From contig JAWPMN010000001.1 in assembly GCA_033344895.1 (NCBI GenBank), forward strand, positions 4,348,001 to 4,412,000: 64,000 nt of DNA, read 5' to 3'. The first letter of the stretch is position 1. Every line of letters starts with the position of its first letter. A program made the position numbers and the translations under genes. The notes below the pieces were generated by a model, which worked only from the letters and a program-made list of their open reading frames with translations, did not search any database and was not told the DNA's origin. Origin of the DNA: Alphaproteobacteria bacterium. Lineage in GTDB: Bacteria > Pseudomonadota > Alphaproteobacteria > UBA8366 > Aestuariispiraceae. Below, in pieces: positions 14,721-25,845 of the stretch.

Positions 14721-16178
14721 CTAACCGTCCAGCTTCGACTTCAGCAACTGGTTGACCATGGCGGGGTTGGCCTGACCCTTGGTGGCCTTCATCACCTGAC
14801 CGACAAACCAACCGATCAGGCCGGTCTTGCCGCCGCGATAGGCATCGACCTGGCCGGGATTGTCCGCGATCAGCGTGTCGATGATGCCTTCCAGTTCCCC
14901 GGTATCGGAAATCTGCTTCAGGCCCTTCGCCTCGACGATTTCGGCGGCCGGCTTTCCGGTTTCCAGCATCTCGTCGAAGACCTCCTTGGCGATCTTGCCT
15001 GAGATGGTGCCGTCCTTGATCAGTTTGACCAGACCGCCCAGCCCTTCGGCATCGATCCGGATCTCGTCCAGGCTCTGCCCGGTCTTGTTCAGGCGGCCGA
15101 ACAATTCGACGGTCAGCCAGTTCGCGGCCAGCTTGGCATCGCCGCCGGCTTTCGCCGCGGTCTCGAAAAAGTCTGCCGTTTCACGCTCGGCCACCAGAAC
15201 GCCCGCGTCATAGGCGCTCAACCCGTAATCCTTCATGAAACGGTGCTTCTTGGGATCCGGCAGTTCCGGCAGGCCTTCGCGGCAGCCATCGACATAGGCA
15301 TCGTCGAACTCCACCGGAAGTAGGTCCGGGTCCGGGAAGTAACGATAGTCGTGGGCGTCCTCCTTGGTGCGCATCGACCGTGTCTCGCCCTTGTTCGGAT
15401 CGAACAGGCGGGTTTCCTGCACCACCGTGCCGCCGCTTTCGATCAGGCGAATCTGGCGTTTTGCCTCGACCTCGGCGGCCTGCCGGATGAAGCGCAGGGA
15501 GTTGACGTTCTTAACCTCGGCCCGCGTACCCAGCGGATCGCCCGGCTTGCGCACCGACACGTTGATATCGGCCCGCATCGAGCCTTCCTGCATGTTCCCG
15601 TCGCAGGAGCCGATATAGCGCAGGATGGACCGAAGCTTGCCGACATAGGCCGATGCCTCGTCGGGCGAGCGGATGTCAGGCTTGGACACAATCTCCATCA
15701 GCGGGACGCCGGCGCGGTTCAGATCGATCAGCGTCTTTTCCGGAACCTGATCATGGATCGACTTTCCGGCATCCTGTTCCAGGTGCAGCCGCTCGATTCC
15801 GATCCTGCGGACCTCGCCATCCTCCATGTCGATCTCGATCTCGCCCTCGCCGATGATCGGCTCCTCGTACTGGCTGATCTGATAGCCCTGGGGCAGATCG
15901 GGATAGAAGTAATTCTTGCGCGCGAAGACGGACCGCTTGTTGACCTTTGCGTTCAGCGCCAGCCCGGTACGCACGGCCTGGCGGATCGCCTCGGCATTCA
16001 CCACCGGCAGCATGCCCGGCATGGCCGCGTCGACCAGGGACACCTGACTGTTCGGTTCGGCCCCGAAATCGGTCGGCGCGCCCGAAAACAGCTTTGCCTT
16101 AGACGTGACCTGGGCATGGACTTCCATGCCGATTACCACTTCCCATTCCCCGGTCTTACCCTTGAGTCTGTACGCCAT
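14721..16178 (-). CDS. gatB: Aspartyl/glutamyl-tRNA(Asn/Gln) amidotransferase subunit B
   Basis: This is the B subunit of the GatCAB amidotransferase, which converts misacylated Glu-tRNA(Gln) or Asp-tRNA(Asn) to the correct amide form. The 485-residue protein matches the family length. It begins [15 protein letters not shown] and has the [18 protein letters not shown] and [14 protein letters not shown] motifs of the kinase-like domain, with the YqeY/tail domain at about 330-485. gatA and gatC, which usually precede it, are not upstream here; the upstream neighbour is a divergent membrane-protein gene. The ATG at 16178 is therefore 144 nt from the divergent start codon. Confidence 0.95.
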
Positions 16179-16321: not shown

Positions 16322-16993
16322 ATGTCCGACTATCGGTTCCTTAGTTTTCTGCCTGGCTGGAGGCAGGAGAACGGTTTCTTTGTCGATTCCCGAGACAGAA
16401 TTGTTTTCTGGGCTGAAAAGGACGGCCCAGGCTATGTTCTGAGCCCCTCGAACGCCGCAAAAATCGCCAAAAGAATGGACGCTAATCGGTATTTTTCTGG
16501 CTGTGCGTTGAGCCTTGGGTTTCTCGTTTTTTTCATCGTAATGACCATCTCACAGGGCGTGACTACATGGCTCGGATTTGCAATCGCAATTGCCTATCTG
16601 GCCGTAATTCAGCTTCTGGATTGGCGTCAGCAAAAATTTCATTCCCCAGCCGCGTTCAAGGCTGATGCGGAGAAACTTTGCTCGCGGAAAGTTCTGATAC
16701 CACGCCCAAAGCCATTCAAGATTCGCCCCTCCGAGAATCTATCTGGTACCCCCTCATCCTTGACCAACCGGTTCTTCGTAATCCTGATGCTGTTTCTTGC
16801 GGGCTCGGCAGGATTATTCGGACTACTTTTCTGGCGAGTAGTATCTGAGCATCCATATTATATTGTTGTGATGTTCTACTCCATTGGCGCTGTAGTTTGG
16901 CTCTACCGCGAACTCACTCGACCGTCGATTTCAACCCAGAACGCTCTTTACGAGATGCGGGAAGACCTCATAGCCGCGACCGAGTCCATGTAG
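16322..16993 (+). CDS. Unrecognised membrane protein, YRFL family (N-module only)
   Basis: I do not recognise this 223-residue protein. It begins MSDYRFLSF and has a short soluble head with NGFFVD..DRI..W....PGY, then two membrane segments (about 55-95), a basic linker with RPKPFKIR (about 128-135), two more membrane segments (150-205) and a TRPSIST tail. The same head, linker (PRPKP) and membrane layout recur in the protein at 23660-25192, so they are paralogues. Base composition is clearly AT-richer than the flanking genes, which suggests acquisition. The next gene downstream resembles the C-terminal half of that larger paralogue. The ATG at 16322 is chosen because it aligns with the start of the paralogue. 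Confidence 0.7.
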   Translation: MSDYRFLSFLPGWRQENGFFVDSRDRIVFWAEKDGPGYVLSPSNAAKIAKRMDANRYFSGCALSLGFLVFFIVMTISQGVTTWLGFAIAIAYLAVIQLLDWRQQKFHSPAAFKADAEKLCSRKVLIPRPKPFKIRPSENLSGTPSSLTNRFFVILMLFLAGSAGLFGLLFWRVVSEHPYYIVVMFYSIGAVVWLYRELTRPSISTQNALYEMREDLIAATESM

Positions 16994-17112
16994 TCCCCTC
17001 CCCGCGCAATGGGAAGGTCGCCCGACGTCCCATGTTTCACTTTCGGTCGGGATGTCACCGCGCTACCCTCCCGTGTCGAAAGCGGGACCGCACGACAACA
17101 AGCGGCACGGGG

Positions 17113-18012
17113 ATGACCGGCGACACCGATTACAAATGGCGGCATGGAAACGCGGCACGGCGGCAATTCGTCAACGGGCTGGGTGATTCCGGGTTCAAGA
17201 CGGCAACGCGCAACTGGCTCACTCCGGTCCTGGCGGCCATGGCGGTGCTGGCAGCGACACTCTATTCGGCATCGAACCTCCTTCCCGTTCTGGCGCCGGT
17301 GGAGATCTATCCGCCGGACCGGCTGGCCAGTGCCTATTGCCGGACGACATTTCGGGGCGCCGACGATTGCTGGCGCAAAGCGGGTGCCCAGAATGAGCCG
17401 ATCCTGTACCGCTGGGAGCGCACGCCGCGTGTCGTAATCCGCGAGATGCCCAAGGGTGCCGACAGTGCGGTCCGGCATCATCTTTATCTGGCACTGCGCG
17501 ACCATCTGAACGTCGCCGGGTTCTCGGATGTGCAGATATCCAAGGACCCACCGGTCAGCCGCAGCGGGACAATCGATATCCGCTTTCCGCCATGGCACAC
17601 GATGCCGGAGGACGTGAAGGAAAAGACCCGGTCGCTGCGCTGGGGGCATTCGAAGGGCAGCATGAACTGGGTCGAACTGTCCCTGAACGCGGAGGCCATT
17701 CGGGACTGGGCCGAGAAGAACACCGGTCCTGGCCGATCCTATGAATCCAATCTGAAATTCTATGCCGAGGCCATGGCGGCTACGGTTCTGGGCCGTGTCG
17801 TCGGGCGCCGTCCGGCCCGGGCGGAGCTCGAATTCCAGGATGTCACGGTATCGCTGGAGACCGCCCTGACGGCCCTGCATTACGCGCCGGATCTGAAGGC
17901 CGGCGCGGATATTCGGGAATCGGTCGCCGCCATCGACAACCTGGCCGAGGGCCTGAGCCAGTCGAAATCCTTCCGAACCTGGCTGGCCGAGCGGCGCGAA
18001 ACAGTCCGCTAG
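17113..18012 (+). CDS. Unrecognised single-pass protein, resembles C-module of YRFL-family protein
   Basis: This is an unrecognised protein of 299 residues from an ATG at 17113. A cytoplasmic basic head is followed by one membrane segment (about residues 36-60), then a large, presumably periplasmic domain. That domain starts with two Cys (AYC, DDC), continues with LYRWERTPRVVI, RHHLYLALRDHLNVAGF and TIDIRFPPW, and ends in helices. By eye the order C..C, L.RW...P.V, RDH...AL..AG, I.IR.P also occurs after the last membrane segment of the protein at 23660-25192. The gene is GC-rich, unlike its partner 119 nt upstream. The long upstream extension of the reading frame lacks a start signal. Confidence 0.65.
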   Translation: MTGDTDYKWRHGNAARRQFVNGLGDSGFKTATRNWLTPVLAAMAVLAATLYSASNLLPVLAPVEIYPPDRLASAYCRTTFRGADDCWRKAGAQNEPILYRWERTPRVVIREMPKGADSAVRHHLYLALRDHLNVAGFSDVQISKDPPVSRSGTIDIRFPPWHTMPEDVKEKTRSLRWGHSKGSMNWVELSLNAEAIRDWAEKNTGPGRSYESNLKFYAEAMAATVLGRVVGRRPARAELEFQDVTVSLETALTALHYAPDLKAGADIRESVAAIDNLAEGLSQSKSFRTWLAERRETVR

Positions 18013-18269
18013 CATCCCCCCATATCCCCAGCCTGCTGGAACGTCGACCGTTTGGAAGGCGGCGGATCGCCGTTCTGCATTTTCGACCGTCGCCCCTTTG
18101 GATGATCCTTGGCGAAGCCATCAGCTCGGTTCCGTGACGCGAATGACCCCATTGAGGTCATTGTGCCTCTACCGCACGGAAATCGACTTGGGCACCTTCC
18201 GGCCGGCGTTCGGGCCCATGCGGCCCGATCGTGATTCACGACATCGATCAGGCAAAGGTAGAGAGCAAG
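18013..18269. other. Intergenic region upstream of the DUF1326 gene
   Basis: There are 257 nt with no supported gene. An in-frame ATG at 18231 could extend the DUF1326 protein by 13 residues, but the internal ATG at 18270 follows a better ribosome binding sequence. No clear promoter hexamers were recognised. Confidence 0.4.
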
Positions 18270-18917
18270 ATGACTGAAAACTTCTGGGAAATTCACGGCA
18301 AGGAATTCGTGAACTGTAACTGCGACTTTGGCTGCCCCTGCCAGTTCAACGCGTTGCCGACGGACGGCACCTGCACGGGCATGGGCGCAATGCACATCGA
18401 AAGCGGCTTTCATGGCGGTGTCCGGCTGGACGGGCTGAATGTCGTCTGGCTGCTGCACTGGCCCAATCCGATCCATCTGGGGAACGGGATTTCTCAGGCC
18501 ATCATCGACGAGCGCGCCAGCGAGGAACAAAGGGCGGCACTGAGCCGCATACTATACGGGCTCGATACCGATATGGGCGCAACGCACTGGCAGGTCTTCA
18601 GCACGACAATGCAGAAAGCACTGCCGCCGCTTTACCGGCCTGTCGATTTTGATGTCGATGTCGACAGCCGGGTAGCGCGGCTGATCGTCCCTGGACTGAT
18701 TGAATCAAGAGGAACGCCGATCCGGAACCCCGTGACCGGCGATGAACACCGCGCGCGCATCGACCTGCCCAATGGATTTGAGTACTCGGTCGCCGAAATG
18801 GGCAGCGGCACGTCGACGGCACTCGGTGACATCCCGATGGAACTGAAGGACAGCTACGGGCAATTCGCGGAAATCCATCTGTCCCAGTCGGGAATCATCA
18901 AGGCGAGGGCCGCCTGA
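18270..18917 (+). CDS. DUF1326 domain-containing protein
   Basis: This 215-residue soluble protein is of the DUF1326 family, function unknown. The N-terminus carries a dense Cys cluster (C16, C18, C22, C24 in NCNCDFGCPCQF) followed by another Cys in DGTC, a likely metal or thiol centre. The rest is a beta-rich domain that includes an ATHWQVF motif. The start at 18270 follows GGTAGAGAGC. Its stop overlaps the next start by one base (TGATG), so it is translationally coupled to the DUF2182 gene. This pairing recurs in proteobacteria and implies a joint function, perhaps with a metal; the function is inference only. Confidence 0.82.
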   Translation: MTENFWEIHGKEFVNCNCDFGCPCQFNALPTDGTCTGMGAMHIESGFHGGVRLDGLNVVWLLHWPNPIHLGNGISQAIIDERASEEQRAALSRILYGLDTDMGATHWQVFSTTMQKALPPLYRPVDFDVDVDSRVARLIVPGLIESRGTPIRNPVTGDEHRARIDLPNGFEYSVAEMGSGTSTALGDIPMELKDSYGQFAEIHLSQSGIIKARAA

Positions 18918-19741
18918 TGCGACTCCAGGCGGATTTCCTGGGGATACTGGCGACGAGCCTGAGGCGCGACAAGTTTCTTGTCGCGCTGCCGCTTGGGGCG
19001 GTGATCCTTTTGTCATGGCTCTATGTGGTGACCGGTGTCGGGCTGGGCATGGATCCGGCAGCCATGAGCGAACCGGCCTTTCCGCCCCCCAAAACCACGC
19101 CGGTTCATCCCCCCATGGGGTGGGGCGCCGGCTACAGTCTCGTGATCTTTGTCATGTGGTGGCTGATGATGGTCGCCATGATGTTGCCCAGCGCCGTGCC
19201 GGTGGTTCTGATCTACGATCGCATGCGGCGAATTGGATCCTCGTCCCCTTCCCCAACCACAAGGATGGGAAGCAGTTGGCGCTTCGTTGCGGGGTATCTG
19301 CTCGTCTGGGGTGGTTTCAGCCTTCTGGCCACGGTCCTGCAGGCCGTGTATGAGCGCGCAGGGCTTGTGCACCCCATGACCATGTGGAGTCTGAACAATA
19401 CATTCACTGCGATCCTGTTGGTCCTGGCCGGATTGTACCAATGGACCCCGTTGAAGGAGAAATGCCTGCAGACCTGCCGGTCTCCCGGGGCGTTCCTCGC
19501 ACGGAACTGGCGTAGAGGCCAGTGGGGTGCGCTCCGCATGGGACTGCATCACGGCGCCTACTGCCTCGGATGCTGCTGGTTTCTGATGGGTCTGCTCTTT
19601 GCGGGCGGCGTGATGAACCTCTACTGGATCACGGGCCTGGCGATCTTCGTCCTGATCGAGAAGGTCCTGCCGGCCGGTGCCGGCTTCGGGCGTCTTGCCG
19701 GAATTGGGATGGTTTATGGGGGAATATGGCTGTTGGTTTGA
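18917..19741 (+). CDS. DUF2182 domain-containing integral membrane protein
   Basis: This 274-residue protein has about seven hydrophobic segments. Family features seen are the MMVAMMLPSAVPVVLIY segment, GMRLGLHHGAYCLGCCWFLM-like residues (here MGLHHGAYCLGCCW) and the C-terminal ILIEKVLPAG-like motif (here VLIEKVLPAG). The HH, C and CC residues are why the family has been described as a predicted metal-binding membrane protein; no transport activity is established that I know of. Start and stop overlap with the DUF1326 gene shows one operon. A methionine-rich first segment is notable. Confidence 0.82.
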   Translation: MRLQADFLGILATSLRRDKFLVALPLGAVILLSWLYVVTGVGLGMDPAAMSEPAFPPPKTTPVHPPMGWGAGYSLVIFVMWWLMMVAMMLPSAVPVVLIYDRMRRIGSSSPSPTTRMGSSWRFVAGYLLVWGGFSLLATVLQAVYERAGLVHPMTMWSLNNTFTAILLVLAGLYQWTPLKEKCLQTCRSPGAFLARNWRRGQWGALRMGLHHGAYCLGCCWFLMGLLFAGGVMNLYWITGLAIFVLIEKVLPAGAGFGRLAGIGMVYGGIWLLV

Positions 19742-19793
19742 GCGTCCTGCCGCCGGTTGCCTAACATGCGATCAGACGTTCAGGATCTCTTAG

Positions 19794-20834
19794 TCACCAG
19801 ACCTCGCAATCCGTGAAATCCGGCAATGCCGCGTTCTTCCGATACATGCCAGGCGTGACCCCGGTCAGGCGCTTGAAGAGGCGTCGGAAGAACGCGGCAT
19901 CCTCATATCCCACCTTCCAGCAGATGTCCTCGATCGACAGGGAAGACTGCTCCAGAAGCCGCTTGCTTCGATCGACGCGCAGTTGCTGCACGTATTGAAT
20001 GGGCGTCAGGCCCGTCGCCCGCCTGAACCGTCTGATGAAGCTCCTTGGAGCGACACCGGTCAGAGAGGCCATCGCGAGCACCGGGTTGGGACTGGAAAAA
20101 TTCTTCTCCAGCCATTGCTGGCAGCGCAGGATCACATCGTCGCCGTGGTCCAACTCCGGGGCAAAGATATAGAAGGCCGCTTGCTGCTCCCAGTGCCAGC
20201 GCATGACAAAGAACTTGCTGACGGCATGTGCCGTCGGATAGCCGACGAACCGGGCGATCAAGTAAAGTACGAGGTCCTGCCAGGACGACGCGCCGCCGCC
20301 CATCACGAATTCTCGGTTGCCACCACTTGTCACCAGCAGCCGTTCCGTCTTGAGCTGAACCTCTGGAAAGGCGGTCCGGAAATCGGGAACATGCGCCCAA
20401 TGCAGCGTGGCTTGCAGCCCGTTGAGCAGCCCCGTTTCGGCCAGCATGAAGACACCGGAACAGGTCGTACACAACAGCCCACCCCTGCTGTGTACCGCCT
20501 TCAGCCACGCGGTTACTTCCGGATTTTCGCCGCGAACCCAACCCTTCGTATCATGAGAAATTGACGGGACGATCACCAGATCCGCGTCCGTCGCGTCGTC
20601 AATGGCGCTACTGCTGTCGATGTCCTGTGCGCTGGCGGTACGGACCCTTCCCCCCTTGTGAGAAACGATGCTTACATCGAACGGCGCGTCCTTCGGAACG
20701 TTCGGGTCCAGGTGGTGCAGGTTGGATACCGTCGACAGGACATCGTAGACCCCCAGCAATGAGGATGCGTAGGACCTTTCCGTGACAAGAATGCATGTCT
20801 TGAGCGGCCGCTGGGCCGACGCCCACCGAGTCAT
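19794..20834 (-). CDS. GlxA-type AraC-family regulator with DJ-1/PfpI-like domain
   Basis: This 346-residue transcription factor has an N-terminal DJ-1/PfpI (class I glutamine amidotransferase-like) ligand domain (about 10-200). It retains the nucleophile elbow CTTCSGVFMLAETG. An AraC-type double helix-turn-helix follows at about 235-335 (GVAPRSFIRRFRRATGLTPIQYV; VGYEDAAFFRRLFKRLTGVTP). The ATG at 20834 overlaps the stop of the upstream exporter gene in an ATGA, so the two are translationally coupled. The longer frame reaching 20900 is not supported. Its regulon is not evident; control of the coupled exporter is plausible. Confidence 0.88.
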   Translation of the reverse strand: MTRWASAQRPLKTCILVTERSYASSLLGVYDVLSTVSNLHHLDPNVPKDAPFDVSIVSHKGGRVRTASAQDIDSSSAIDDATDADLVIVPSISHDTKGWVRGENPEVTAWLKAVHSRGGLLCTTCSGVFMLAETGLLNGLQATLHWAHVPDFRTAFPEVQLKTERLLVTSGGNREFVMGGGASSWQDLVLYLIARFVGYPTAHAVSKFFVMRWHWEQQAAFYIFAPELDHGDDVILRCQQWLEKNFSSPNPVLAMASLTGVAPRSFIRRFRRATGLTPIQYVQQLRVDRSKRLLEQSSLSIEDICWKVGYEDAAFFRRLFKRLTGVTPGMYRKNAALPDFTDCEVW

Positions 20835-21760
20835 CGGTTGATCAGCCGCTCGGCGAAAGCAGCGACCATCCCCAGCGTGACGATCCCTACTCCAGCCCAT
20901 TCAAGGCGGCCCGGAAACTCCCCGAGCACATGAATCGCGATCAGCGTCGTCACACATGGAATGGCCGCGGTGAACAGCGCGGTTCCGTTCGGGCCAAGAC
21001 TGTGCACAGACCGCATATAGACAAAGATGGATACAGCGCCGACCAGCGCCCCCTGGAAAATCGCCTGCACCAGAAGATCCTGCGCCTCCACGGCGATCCA
21101 TCCATCGATTCCGAACACCGTGAAATAGACCGGCAAATAGAGCCCGGCTGAAACAACAACCACCAAGGCAGCGGCTTGAACCGCAGGAATCCCCGCCCGT
21201 TTGACGTAGATGCCGCATGCCGACCAGCAGAGCGCGGCGAGAAGCAGGCAGAAATCCCCAATCAGTTGAGTGGATGTCGCACCGCGCATGGTATCGAACG
21301 CCATCAATCCGATCCCCAGGGCAATCAGCAGGACGCCGGGAATCGACCCGCGGCGCACGCTTTCCCCAAGCAGCAGACTGACGGCAAAAGTGAACAGCGG
21401 CAGCGTACCGTGCAAGAGGACCGCGCCATGCGCTGCCGGTGCCAGGAAGAACCCGGCATAGGCAAGGAGCGCGAACCCGAGCCCGCCCAGAAAGGCCATG
21501 CGAATTACCGCCGCCAGTGCCATGCCCGCGAAACGCCGACGCAGGAACAGCGGCAGCATGATCAGGCCGCCGACCGCGAACCTAAGAGCCGCAATGTCCC
21601 ATACCCCAAATCCTGCGGTGCTTCCGACCCGGGACATGATGTTGAAGCCGGAGAAGAGGAGAACGACCGTCAATGCGCAGATCACGCCTATCGCGTGCTC
21701 CCTTCTGATCCGGGCGGCCTCCTGGAACTGCGTCCTTTGCGGGGAATCCGAAACGGCCAT
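20831..21760 (-). CDS. EamA/DMT-family permease
   Basis: This 309-residue inner-membrane transporter of the drug/metabolite transporter superfamily has ten predicted membrane segments in two EamA repeats (about 28-155 and 165-300). Typical motifs are FNIMSRVG, RFAVGG, and FLLLAALCWSACGIY in the second repeat. Substrates in this family are amino acids, nucleosides or other metabolites and cannot be told here. It is divergent from the LysR gene at 21853, a classical regulator-exporter arrangement. It overlaps the AraC-type regulator by 4 nt. Confidence 0.88.
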   Translation of the reverse strand: MAVSDSPQRTQFQEAARIRREHAIGVICALTVVLLFSGFNIMSRVGSTAGFGVWDIAALRFAVGGLIMLPLFLRRRFAGMALAAVIRMAFLGGLGFALLAYAGFFLAPAAHGAVLLHGTLPLFTFAVSLLLGESVRRGSIPGVLLIALGIGLMAFDTMRGATSTQLIGDFCLLLAALCWSACGIYVKRAGIPAVQAAALVVVVSAGLYLPVYFTVFGIDGWIAVEAQDLLVQAIFQGALVGAVSIFVYMRSVHSLGPNGTALFTAAIPCVTTLIAIHVLGEFPGRLEWAGVGIVTLGMVAAFAERLINR

Positions 21761-21852
21761 GGCAGAAATCCTCCGAGAGAGTCAGGGAGAAGCGTTCTAG
21801 CCTGCCGCCAAACATAATGATAACATATATAATTAATGAATTGAGATAAGGT
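21761..21852. promoter_or_regulatory. Divergent promoter region, DMT exporter / LysR regulator
   Basis: This 92-nt AT-rich segment between the two start codons contains overlapping near-palindromic runs around 21811-21845 (CATAATG, ATATATAATTAATGAATT). LysR regulators typically bind T-N11-A palindromes in such shared regions and control both genes. The exact operator is not determined. Confidence 0.45.
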
Positions 21853-22716
21853 ATGTTTATGCATTTCAAACAACTCCGCGTGCTTGTCGCAGTCGTCGAA
21901 TGCCAAGGGGTCACCGCGGCGGCAGAGCGGCTCAATGTTTCCCAGCCTGCCGTCTCAACGGCGTTGAGGTCGTTGGAGGAACAGGTGGCCGCCACGCTGT
22001 TTGAGCGGTTCAGCGGCGGAAGACGGACCAAGCCGACTGCCGCCGGACTGAAACTGTATGCCGAAGCGAAAGAGATCCTCAAACGCTGGGACACCGCGGT
22101 CCGAAGTCTGAAAGCCGCTGACAGCCGTGCGCCCGCACTCCGGCTTGGCGTGCTTCATACGCTTGCCGCTGCCGATGTCGCCCAGGCGCAGGCTGTCCTC
22201 GCCAAAGAGGCCTCGAACTGGCGATGGCAATTGCGCGAAAGCGATGCGTCGTCCCTTGCTTCCGATCTGGAACAGGGGCGCGCCGACCTGCTGTGGACCG
22301 TGGTTGATGGAACCGATCCGATGTCACGCCCCCTGTGGCATGAACCCTATGTGGCCATGGTGGCGAAATCCCATCCCCTGGCCCGCAGCGGCCGCCTGAG
22401 CATTCAGGTTCAGGATCTCGAAGGGGAACGCATCATACTTCGCGGAACATGCGAGTTGCCAAACAACACGCTGCGCAATGCGGGCCTGACGATCCGCCCT
22501 GCGGCGCGGACCGACCGCGATCAGTTGGCGATGTCCTACGTCGCGCGTGACGTCGGATATGCCATCGCCCCGCGCAGCCTCGCCACATCCGACGTCGTGC
22601 CGCTATCCGTTTCCGATCTTGGTCTATCCAGATGCATCGGAATTCGCTGGAACCGGAGCGACTTCCAGGACGCAGCGGAGGCCCTCGGAACCGTTCTGGC
22701 GGAACTGAGGCGTTAG
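21853..22716 (+). CDS. LysR-family transcriptional regulator
   Basis: This 287-residue LTTR has a winged helix-turn-helix at residues 5-65 (MHFKQLRVLVAVVECQGVTAAAERLNVSQPAVSTALRSLEEQ) and a two-lobed effector-binding domain at about 95-285. It is divergent from the DMT permease and is probably its regulator. An internal ATG two codons in (21859) is an alternative start. The effector is unknown. Confidence 0.92.
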   Translation: MFMHFKQLRVLVAVVECQGVTAAAERLNVSQPAVSTALRSLEEQVAATLFERFSGGRRTKPTAAGLKLYAEAKEILKRWDTAVRSLKAADSRAPALRLGVLHTLAAADVAQAQAVLAKEASNWRWQLRESDASSLASDLEQGRADLLWTVVDGTDPMSRPLWHEPYVAMVAKSHPLARSGRLSIQVQDLEGERIILRGTCELPNNTLRNAGLTIRPAARTDRDQLAMSYVARDVGYAIAPRSLATSDVVPLSVSDLGLSRCIGIRWNRSDFQDAAEALGTVLAELRR

Positions 22717-22811
22717 GTTCCGATTCGCAATGCGGCGATTGCCGGCCGGAAAGTCGAACGGCGCCGCCCCTGGAGGCGACGCCGCTTCCAAAAATCTTTC
22801 ACTTAGACCTG
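22717..22811. other. Convergent region between the LysR gene and the truncated sodB
   Basis: A GC-rich inverted repeat (about 22760-22785, GGCGCCGCC / GGCGACGCC, one mismatch) followed by a short A/T tract probably terminates both converging transcripts. Unlike the sodB repeat that follows, this stretch is not shared with the sequence downstream of the intact sodB. Confidence 0.4.
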
Positions 22812-23207
22812 TTACGCCGCCTTCAGATTGGCGTTGGCAAAGTCCCAGTTGATCAGGTTGCCGAGGAAAGCGCCCATATAGTCGGGACGGCGGTTCTGGT
22901 AGTCCAGATAGTAGGCGTGTTCCCAGACATCCATCGTGATGATCGGCGTCTTGCCTTCGACCAGCGGCGTGCCGGCATTCGGCGTCTTTTCGACGGCCAG
23001 CTTTCCGCCGTCCAGGACCAGCCAGGCCCAGCCGGAGCCGAACTGAGTTGCGCCGGCGTTCTTGAACGCATCGGCAAAGGCCTCGTAGGACCCGAAATCC
23101 TCATTGATCTTGTCCGCGATGTCGCCGGTCGGGGCGCCGCCGCCATTCGGGCTCATCGAATTCCAGTAGAAGGTGTGATTCCAGACCTGGGCCGCCTGGT
23201 TGAACAG
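22812..23207 (-). pseudogene. sodB: Truncated superoxide dismutase gene, duplicate of the 3' two-thirds of sodB
   Basis: These 396 nt match the 3' part of the intact sodB (25249-25644) with about 7 differences by eye, all synonymous. The encoded residues 68-198 are identical to the intact protein. The first 67 residues are missing, including the first metal ligand His27 and the N-terminal helical hairpin, so it cannot make an active enzyme by itself. The break at 23207 abuts the remains of a phytanoyl-CoA dioxygenase gene in the same frame, separated by one TAA. Perfect protein identity points to recent duplication, gene conversion, or import from a close relative. Confidence 0.9.
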
Positions 23208-23228
23208 CACGATCTTGGTCCCGAACCC

Positions 23229-23390
23229 TTACTGATCCGGCCGGACCAGTACATGGTCGTGGATCGACGGACACTCCTCCATCGCGCGGTTCAGCAGCGA
23301 GACCTCCTGCGCCTCGAACATGCCCGGCACAGTGACGTAACCATCCCGATGAAAGGCGGCTTCCTGATCCGAGGAAAACGTAAATGCCAT
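23229..23390 (-). pseudogene. Truncated phytanoyl-CoA dioxygenase (PhyH) family gene, 5' fragment
   Basis: These are 53 codons from an ATG at 23390, preceded by GGGGACGGACG. The residues (DQEAAFHRDGYVTVPGMF, then LLNRAMEECPSIHDHVLVRPDQ) match the N-terminus of PhyH-family Fe(II)/2-oxoglutarate dioxygenases, which are normally 250-300 residues. All catalytic residues are missing. A stop follows at 23229, and 21 nt later the truncated sodB sequence begins in the same frame. This looks like the left junction of a rearrangement. Confidence 0.7.
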
Positions 23391-23659
23391 GACGTCCGTC
23401 CCCATTCCCTCTGTCTGTTTCGGGAACAGTCTACCGGCGTTTGGCACTCGAATCATCGGATGTGATCAGCAAGCAGTTTGAACCGGGGGTCACAATGTCT
23501 CCCACCATTAGAAACCAAAATCATTGCAGTTCTGACTCTAAACCTATTCCTTAATTGGACCCTCCCCCAAACGCAGAGAAATCTTTACACTTCCTCTTTT
23601 GGTAGCACTCGCTGAGAGAAACTGATTAGGGTCGCTAGTGACTACGGGAGGGGATTGTA
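23391..23659. other. AT-richer spacer upstream of the fused YRFL-family gene
   Basis: There are 269 nt with no supported gene. Composition shifts from GC-rich to AT-rich near 23460, which marks the likely left boundary of the foreign segment carrying the gene at 23660. A GGGAGGGGAT ribosome binding site lies at its right end. Confidence 0.4.
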
Positions 23660-25192
23660 TTGAGCGAATACCGCTTTCTGGGTTTTGACACTTTAGAACG
23701 GCAAGCGAACGGCTTCTTCGTCGACCGGGATGACCGTATCGCCTACTGGCCCAATTCCCGAGCCCCTGGCTACGAAATTCCTCTGGACCTTGCTCGTAAG
23801 TTGAGTTCGCACACCAGACTTGCATCCATGCCACGCCGCCCATTGACCTGGGACCAATGTATGTCCATTGGCGTGTTCGCCGCCGTGATTGCCGTAGCGA
23901 CCTTCGTCTTCTTGACGATCGACCCGCATCGACAGTTTTTTGACTACGTTTTCATGGGTGCCCATGATCGCTTTCCAGACCTATTCAGTGATATGGGCTC
24001 AGTCGGGGTCCCCGTCACCGGCATATGTCTGATTTCAGTTCCAATCGCCTCCATACTACGTATTTGGACATCACGGTCCGTAGGGCGCTTGCGAGAATGG
24101 ATCTCGTCACATTCGAACGTGATAGAAATCCACCAGCCCAGACCGAAACCAATCCGCTTGCGATTAGACGACATTAGAGCCGAAGGGCCGGCTCCAATTA
24201 CACTAAGGATTATAATTTACCTGTCTGGCGGCGTTTTCCTTGCCGTCGGAATCGTATTGCTTTTCTACGTGCCGTTTGTTGCGCTTCGTTGGGGCGATCA
24301 AGTCGTCGGGGTGCTCCTTGGAGCTTTGCTTGTTTACGTATCAGCATCTTGCCTTATTTCACTCACTTTTCGACCGTCTGTTCGAGATTTGGAAACCTTG
24401 GACAGCACGACATTTCCTAATGAAATCGAAGAAAAGCCTCGTGCCATCCCCCTAAGCCGGAGGATGTGGCGGAATGTAATGAACACCGTTGGGTACATCT
24501 TATTTGGCGCAGTCTCGTTCGTTGTACTGATTGCACTGAGGGAGCAACCCAGTTGGTACGATCCCCACGAAGCATTGGATGCATTCTGTAGGGGCGTGAT
24601 CTGGTCCACCCCAGATTCTGTTACAACCTGTGACACAGTTCCTGAAAATGCCACGCTGATGCGTTGGACTTACCGCCCGTCGGTTCATTTGACGCACGGC
24701 GACCCAGATATCAGTCGATTTGCAAAAAGAGTGCGCGACCATATCTCCGCAGCTCTGGATGGCGCCGGTTTGAACAAAGAAGAATCCGGAATTATACGCA
24801 AAACAATTGAGATAGTTATACGGCGGCCTGTGCAGGATGAACGGCTTGCAGGGTCCATATTTACCCGAAGAGTCGGAGTAAACGCATGGAGCCTTCAAAA
24901 GATGGAGTTCGACGTAAACTTCTTTGAAGCGCGAGCGTCTCGGAAAAGTATAGTCGAGCGCGAAATCGCGCAAGCCGCCAGCGGACTTCATATTTCGGCG
25001 CTGGAGAACTACGACAGTTTTCTAGTGAACTGGTCACTAATTGATACGAAACGGCTCACCCTTGAGATCTTATACGATTCCCGAATGCGCTCTGGAATGC
25101 CGGCCGGCGAGGCAATAATTTTAGCCCGCCAAATTCTAGACGAAATCTACAATGCCGGAGGTTTGGACGAGTGGCGGGGGTCCCGCCCCTAA
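23660..25192 (+). CDS. Unrecognised five-pass membrane protein, fused YRFL-family N- and C-modules
   Basis: I do not recognise this 510-residue protein. The start is a TTG at 23660 behind a strong GGGAGGGG site, giving MSEYRFLGF; this aligns with the ATG start of the paralogue at 16322. The N-module (1-250) has the head NGFFVD.DDRI.YWP....PGY, two membrane segments, the linker PRPKPIRLR, two more membrane segments and TFRPSVRD. A fifth membrane segment (about 273-292) is followed by a periplasmic-looking C-module with two Cys (AFC, TTC), LMRWTYRPSVHL, RVRDHISAALDGAGL and IEIVIRRP. The gene is much AT-richer than its neighbours and lies between two copies of sodB sequence. Function unknown. 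Confidence 0.75.
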   Translation: MSEYRFLGFDTLERQANGFFVDRDDRIAYWPNSRAPGYEIPLDLARKLSSHTRLASMPRRPLTWDQCMSIGVFAAVIAVATFVFLTIDPHRQFFDYVFMGAHDRFPDLFSDMGSVGVPVTGICLISVPIASILRIWTSRSVGRLREWISSHSNVIEIHQPRPKPIRLRLDDIRAEGPAPITLRIIIYLSGGVFLAVGIVLLFYVPFVALRWGDQVVGVLLGALLVYVSASCLISLTFRPSVRDLETLDSTTFPNEIEEKPRAIPLSRRMWRNVMNTVGYILFGAVSFVVLIALREQPSWYDPHEALDAFCRGVIWSTPDSVTTCDTVPENATLMRWTYRPSVHLTHGDPDISRFAKRVRDHISAALDGAGLNKEESGIIRKTIEIVIRRPVQDERLAGSIFTRRVGVNAWSLQKMEFDVNFFEARASRKSIVEREIAQAASGLHISALENYDSFLVNWSLIDTKRLTLEILYDSRMRSGMPAGEAIILARQILDEIYNAGGLDEWRGSRP

Positions 25193-25193
25193 G

Positions 25194-25248: not shown

Positions 25249-25845
25249 TTACGCCGCCTTCAGATTGGCGTTGGCAAAGTCCCAGTTGATCAGGTTGCCG
25301 AGGAAAGCGCCCATATAGTCGGGACGGCGGTTCTGGTAGTCCAGATAGTAGGCGTGTTCCCAGACATCCATCGTGATGATCGGCGTCTTGCCTTCGACCA
25401 GTGGCGTGCCGGCATTCGGCGTCTTTTCGACGGCCAGCTTTCCGCCGTCCAGGACCAGCCAGGCCCAGCCGGAGCCGAACTGAGTTGCGCCCGCATTCTT
25501 GAACGCATCGGCAAAGGCCTCGTAGGAGCCGAAGTCTTCGTTGATCTTGTCCGCGATGTCGCCGGTCGGGGCGCCGCCGCCATTCGGGCTCATCGAATTC
25601 CAGTAGAAGGTGTGATTCCAGACCTGGGCCGCCTGGTTGAACAGGCCCTGATCACCCTTGTCATGCGCCGCCTTGGTGATTTCCTCGACCGTGGCGTCGT
25701 CCAGATCGGTACCGGAAATCAACTCGTTGCACTTGGTCACATAGGCATTGTGGTGCTTGCCGTGGTGAAAGCCCAGCGTGTTCGCCGAAATATGCGGTTC
25801 CAGGGCGTCCTGAGCATAGGGCAGTGCAGGCAGTTCGATGGCCAT
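25249..25845 (-). CDS. sodB: Superoxide dismutase, iron type
   Basis: It converts superoxide to oxygen and hydrogen peroxide in the cytoplasm. The protein has 198 residues, the normal length. The metal ligands are H27 (FHHGKHH), H78 (QVWNHTFYW), D160 and H164 ([12 protein letters not shown]). The AAQVWNH motif with Gln near the first helix bundle is typical of Fe-SOD rather than Mn-SOD, although cambialistic enzymes exist. A truncated near-identical copy lies at 22812-23207. The intact gene is convergent with the foreign-looking gene at 23660 and divergent from the PuuD-like gene. Confidence 0.95.
   Translation of the reverse strand: MAIELPALPYAQDALEPHISANTLGFHHGKHHNAYVTKCNELISGTDLDDATVEEITKAAHDKGDQGLFNQAAQVWNHTFYWNSMSPNGGGAPTGDIADKINEDFGSYEAFADAFKNAGATQFGSGWAWLVLDGGKLAVEKTPNAGTPLVEGKTPIITMDVWEHAYYLDYQNRRPDYMGAFLGNLINWDFANANLKAA

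Follow-up and report, generated by a model that had tools for sequence, protein, structure and literature searches.

On balance, we favour the reading in which a gene at 23660-25192 of the 64,000-nucleotide stretch of DNA analysed here (the window; positions 4,348,001 to 4,412,000 of contig JAWPMN010000001.1, from an alphaproteobacterium of the family Aestuariispiraceae) encodes an inner-membrane protein with a divergent, non-catalytic periplasmic domain related to DUF2927 (PF11150), and in which this gene and two smaller relatives are cargo of a hotspot of gene gain and loss. All three open reading frames (ORFs) were confirmed at the positions given in a preliminary description of the window. 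Their proteins are made of an N-module, a C-module or both, and the genes differ in GC content, including that at third codon positions (GC3):

16322 to 16993, plus strand: gene with the N-module only, protein P0001 of 223 amino acids; AT-rich, GC 0.501, GC3 0.558.
17113 to 18012, plus strand: gene with the C-module only, protein P0002 of 299 amino acids; host-like composition, GC3 0.767.
23660 to 25192, plus strand: fused gene, protein P0003 of 510 amino acids, with a TTG start behind GGGAGGGG; AT-rich, GC 0.517, GC3 0.544.

The fused architecture is real and recurs once. A scan of genome contigs with P0003 alone found nothing, and the same scan with a two-protein alignment found one locus (L045) in Pacificispira spongiicola KN72 (G001), the only named genome found with a fused gene. 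This organism belongs to the Aestuariispiraceae (Alphaproteobacteria) and shares its genus with the window's genome (G000). Its fused protein, P0006, is 34% identical to P0003 over residues 1-509. Hydropathy analysis gave five hydrophobic segments in each of the two proteins, the fifth lying at 273-291 in P0003. Four of them fall in the N-module of P0003 (residues 1-240), and the C-module (about residues 295-510) follows all five predicted membrane helices. Positive charges and hydropathy suggest that the N-terminus lies inside and the C-module in the periplasm.

The evidence linking the C-module to DUF2927 came from profile comparison. The searches of the whole analysis covered genomes of the phylum (n = 398), the class (a draw of 385), the order (43, including the window's own and 42 others), the family (14) and the genus (6). 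A profile of the C-parts of the two fused proteins matched 18 of the 385 class genomes, 17 of them besides the window's own. At 15 of these 17 loci a DUF2927-type ORF was present as judged by motif and alignment; all seven of those loci put through Pfam exceeded the PF11150 cut-off, and the assignment of the other eight relies on motif and alignment. The remaining two, L021 and L033, were set aside as having no DUF2927-like ORF. Together with four proteins found by PF11150, the 15 made up a set of 19 DUF2927 proteins; L035, L039 and L042, which also pass the PF11150 cut-off, were left out of the alignment. Against this set, the fused C-parts reached hhalign probabilities of 96.9% and 97.9% in the two directions, and after trimming of the membrane segments the score was 71.7 with a shuffle maximum of 18.5. 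A 14-member DUF2927 alignment gave 96.5%, and P0002 profiled jointly with the fused C-parts gave 97.6%. Because 15 of the 19 members had been fetched by the C-module profile itself, the comparison was repeated with only the four members found by PF11150. The result was weaker and still positive (79%, score 41.7 over 182 columns; maximum of 100 shuffles, 20.7). The match extends over approximately 180-210 columns, with an L.RW segment common to both, and the C-terminal LYD.R...GM....A...AR.I..E end of DUF2927 is also found in the C-module. Its LYDpRl..GM signature is kept as LYDSRMRSGM in P0003 and LYDKRLHAGM in P0006, and in the weaker form HYAPDLKAGA in P0002. Collectively, these results support the C-module as a divergent relative of DUF2927.

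Compared to DUF2927 proteins, the fused proteins exhibit several distinct features. First, five hydrophobic segments precede the C-module in both of them, while the 19 DUF2927 ORFs have zero to two, N-terminal of the domain. Second, the C-module does not have the HExxH histidines. At this site, HExxH is found in 4 of the 19 DUF2927 proteins, EExxQ in 12 and other forms in 3. P0003 reads REIAQ there, with both the Glu and the Gln of EExxQ kept, and HExxH occurs nowhere in P0001, P0002, P0003, P0005 (the small protein of P. spongiicola), P0006 or P0007. Third, two cysteines that are invariant in the 14-member DUF2927 alignment (C216 and C248 in L018 numbering) have no counterpart at the same columns in any of the four C-modules. 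The C-modules have a cysteine pair of their own elsewhere, closer to the membrane helix (76/86 in P0002, 310/324 in P0003 and 329/344 in P0006). The preliminary description had recorded a C..C pattern, which is in fact two cysteines 10-15 residues apart. From its residues, the C-module would be a non-catalytic, disulfide-braced periplasmic domain. Within DUF2927 itself, the split between HExxH and EExxQ at one site (L018-L041 ORFs) hints at active and inactive members.

The alternative that the C-module is a still working, membrane-tethered zinc peptidase would draw on its DUF2927 kinship, the HExxH of the four sampled members and the Glu kept in P0003, and seems hardly credible for proteins that carry no HExxH. 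Some DUF2927 relatives do share this motif with a class of peptidases that we take to be the metzincins. The window proteins differ from that class in having no HExxH, and the link consists of the sub-threshold Pfam match of one relative only (L026 against Peptidase_M10 and M57, E 0.08-0.09).

Several observations weigh against a non-catalytic DUF2927 relative as the favoured reading. Pfam calls no DUF2927 in P0002, P0003, P0006 or P0007 at E values up to 1. The 17 class matches are short and weak (E 1.4e-5 to 0.006), and most cover roughly the last 32-63 positions of the module. The profile of P0002 and its homologue from a congener (G004) alone matched DUF2927 weakly and partially (44-49% over approximately 86 columns), reaching 94% over 86 columns when the fused C-parts were added to the DUF2927 profile; against the four independently found members it gave 15% over 64 columns, with a score of 28.9, still above the highest shuffle (20.3). 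How the sequences align at the HExxH site is uncertain, and P0006 and P0002 show no clean alignment in this region. No relative of the module with a solved structure was found (best E 0.22), and we know of no function for DUF2927. No paper on DUF2927 or PF11150 turned up in the literature searched, and no solved structure of the family was found. PF11150 was above cut-off in 5 of the 14 family genomes and in none of the window's genus.

The C-module of P0002 was related to that of P0003 by profiles as well, as the preliminary description had proposed. BLASTP between the two proteins was not significant (best E 0.25). The profile of P0002 and its G004 homologue matched that of the two fused C-parts with an hhalign probability of 78% over 213 columns, and of 81% over 209 columns (score 41.5) after removal of the membrane segments. 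This score is above that of every one of 100 column shuffles (mean 13.7, standard deviation 2.5, maximum 24.4) and above that of the reversed profile (19.1). The preliminary description had named the lack of a significant profile match as grounds for refutation, and its proposal of related C-modules survives that check. P0002 has one hydrophobic segment (39-57), followed by the DUF2927-like domain. A further match in the order genomes, in G038 (E 0.0076), was rejected for its three internal stops. The comparison of predicted structures suggested in the preliminary description added no support, as AlphaFold models built from three or four sequences had mean predicted local distance difference test (pLDDT) values of 43.1 and 48.9 and were not usable. 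In the low-confidence model, four short strands in residues 5-40 of the N-module and a helix precede the membrane helices, with a block at pLDDT 72-77 over residues 21-50. Foldseek with the better model gave no match at E <=0.001, and this search was not used.

The N-modules were connected more directly. P0001 and P0003 are 47% identical over residues 1-49 (BLASTP E 3e-11), and the PRPKP linker gives a second match (E 0.001), which establishes as homologous the N-terminal signature and linker reported for them earlier. The short head of P0001 reads MSDYRFL...GFFVD..DRI.FW...PGY and would be cytoplasmic; the linker sits between membrane pairs. An alignment of P0001, P0003 and their two P. spongiicola counterparts has 14 invariant positions among its first 55 columns, GFFVD, W and PGY included. 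Hydropathy placed three hydrophobic segments above threshold in each of P0001 and P0005, and a fourth, judged by eye, is probably present near 178-196 of P0001. Proteins P0001, P0003 and P0005 had no match near a curated cut-off in Pfam, NCBIfam or PADLOC, and no known family was found for the N-module in these libraries.

The accepted N-module matches among the genomes searched came from the window's genome and P. spongiicola only, or 2 of the 43 order genomes with the window's own counted. The class draw gave the window's own match and one in G277 (E 7e-4) that was rejected, as it has two internal stops and overlaps a long ORF, presumably an SdhA-like one; G001 was not among the matches and is taken as not drawn. 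The phylum search, with a model of the 55-residue head, gave the window's own match and five weak ones (E 0.002-0.008), none of them accepted: stops lie inside three, four are in open frames of 34-94 amino acids, and the fifth (L048) is within an 820-amino-acid frame. P0003 and its head had no match in plasmids or phages, and the two-protein alignment had none in viral contigs. The fused protein thus represents a known, uncharacterised domain in a membrane-fused form that these searches recovered from no other genus.

The preliminary description took P0001 and P0002 for two parts of a single complex that have separate genes at this point and form one protein in P0003, so that all would probably act together. 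The homology of each module to the matching half of the fused protein and the existence of a second fused form in P. spongiicola both stand, and 16322 and 17113 are adjacent, co-oriented and in the expected order. The adjacent split pair itself was found in 1 of the 43 order genomes, the window's own, and in none of the 42 others; this lack of recurrence, which the preliminary description had itself listed as a refuting outcome, weakens the inference that the modules are partners. The arrangement seen in the second genome is different, as in P. spongiicola a small gene directly precedes the fused gene and there is no homologue of 17113. Conversely, G004 carries a homologue of 17113 (79% identical) after a DUF4399 gene and has no N-module gene. 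The DNA homology between the window and G004 starts at 17102, 11 bp ahead of the 17113 ATG, and the GC3 of 16322 (0.558) differs from that of 17113 (0.767). With these observations against it, a single complex of all three proteins appears doubtful, and we regard it as a minor possibility.

The two adjacent genes could also derive from a second fused gene of full length that broke in two, given that they have the same architecture and order and lie approximately 120 bp apart. This view is very unlikely and was rejected: P0002 has an N-terminus of its own, whose start MTGDTDYKWRHGNAARR is conserved in the 79% identical G004 homologue, the G004 copy has the DUF4399 gene upstream instead, and the GC3 of 17113 is unlike that of 16322. 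Furthermore, 17113 looks to be under purifying selection relative to its G004 homologue, with nonsynonymous (dN) and synonymous (dS) rates of 0.15 and 0.63 by NG86 (dN/dS of approximately 0.24) and of 0.13 and 1.58 by YN00. The simplest history would start from a tandem of small and fused genes as in G001, with 17113 and other genes arriving independently.

Both gene sets, which the preliminary description had assigned to two loci, sit in one interval, from gatB to sodB. Its other features in the window are as follows:

14721 to 16178, minus strand: gatB, the left border of the variable interval.
18231 to 19741: a DUF1326 gene with a PpoB2-type copper chaperone gene directly after it, within the interval.
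19794 to 22716: genes for an AraC/DJ-1-type regulator, an EamA transporter and a LysR regulator, between the small and the fused gene.
22812 to 23207, minus strand: a second, incomplete sodB sequence corresponding to the 3' two thirds of the gene, 98.2% identical to 25249-25644.
23192 to 23483, minus strand: 5' part of a truncated PhyH-type dioxygenase gene, which runs into the sodB copy and shares 16 bp with it.
25249 to 25845, minus strand: the right border, a gene that we take from its sequence to be sodB (Fe/Mn superoxide dismutase).

Between gatB and sodB lies a hotspot of gene turnover. The neighbourhood of the two minus-strand border genes is kept in G001 and G004 and, by positions, in G002, G003 and G005, and gene content differs in most of the six genus genomes:

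G005: about 0.8 kb; a ParE-family toxin gene.
G002 and G003: about 1.05 kb each; a PhyH-type gene (Pfam scan in G002 only).
G001 (P. spongiicola): 3.3 kb; the small gene, the fused gene and a NUDIX gene.
G004: 6.5 kb; DUF4399, the 17113 homologue, PhyH, flotillin, YqiJ-like and PspA-like genes.
G000 (the window): 9.1 kb.

The regulator and transporter genes at 19794-22716 are absent from the G001 interval. Among eight genomes of other genera of the family, six gave both gatB and sodB, on different contigs in three and at least about 158 kb apart in three.

A scar beside the fused gene marks a recent rearrangement, by tandem duplication or recombination. Here the 396-bp copy of the sodB 3' part is fused to the PhyH-type 5' piece, which is 81% identical to G004. 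AT-rich DNA (23484-23659, GC 0.466) and the fused gene then run to 25192, and homology to G004 resumes at 25193. Of the 47 ORFs picked greedily as gene proxies across the window, a few of them probably not genes, only one has a lower GC3 than 23660. In G001, GC3 is 0.542 for the small gene, 0.623 for the fused gene and 0.789 for gatB.

A variable interval, AT-rich genes and the ParE-family toxin gene of G005 would also suit a mobile module of the anti-phage or toxin-immunity type in a defence hotspot. We consider this improbable, as none of the five proteins scanned had a PADLOC match better than E 0.05, P0003 is unmatched in plasmids and phages, and the surrounding genes in the window encode two regulators, an EamA transporter, and DUF1326 and PpoB2 proteins.

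For the favoured reading, of a non-catalytic membrane protein carried by the hotspot, the architecture suggests the following mode of action. The N-terminal 50 residues of P0003 would form a small, beta-rich cytoplasmic head, followed by two helix hairpins, and the fifth helix would carry the divergent DUF2927-like domain into the periplasm. Because it has neither HExxH nor the cysteine pair conserved in the DUF2927 proteins sampled, the C-module most likely binds a periplasmic partner or ligand without cutting it, as a putative sensor or adaptor. The head and hairpins would probably relay the bound state to the cytoplasm or keep the domain within a complex in the membrane. P0001 is paralogous to the membrane part and most likely joins the fused protein via the helices that they share, an idea prompted by P. 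spongiicola, where the small and the fused gene stand in tandem. P0002 would be a paralogue of the periplasmic part with one helix and an inheritance of its own, and a putative partner at most. A bolder form of this proposal is a so far undescribed complex for envelope signalling. Its membrane hub, with a beta-head in the cytoplasm, would display a pseudopeptidase of the DUF2927 kind, and membrane and periplasmic paralogues that are gained and lost in the gatB-sodB hotspot would be mixed and matched in its assembly; we offer this form tentatively, as an idea with a rather small chance of being correct.

An orphan membrane protein has thus been linked to DUF2927, with the domain lacking a peptidase site and joined to a multi-helix membrane hub. 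Should the domain serve for binding, DUF2927 may have shifted from peptidase to receptor.

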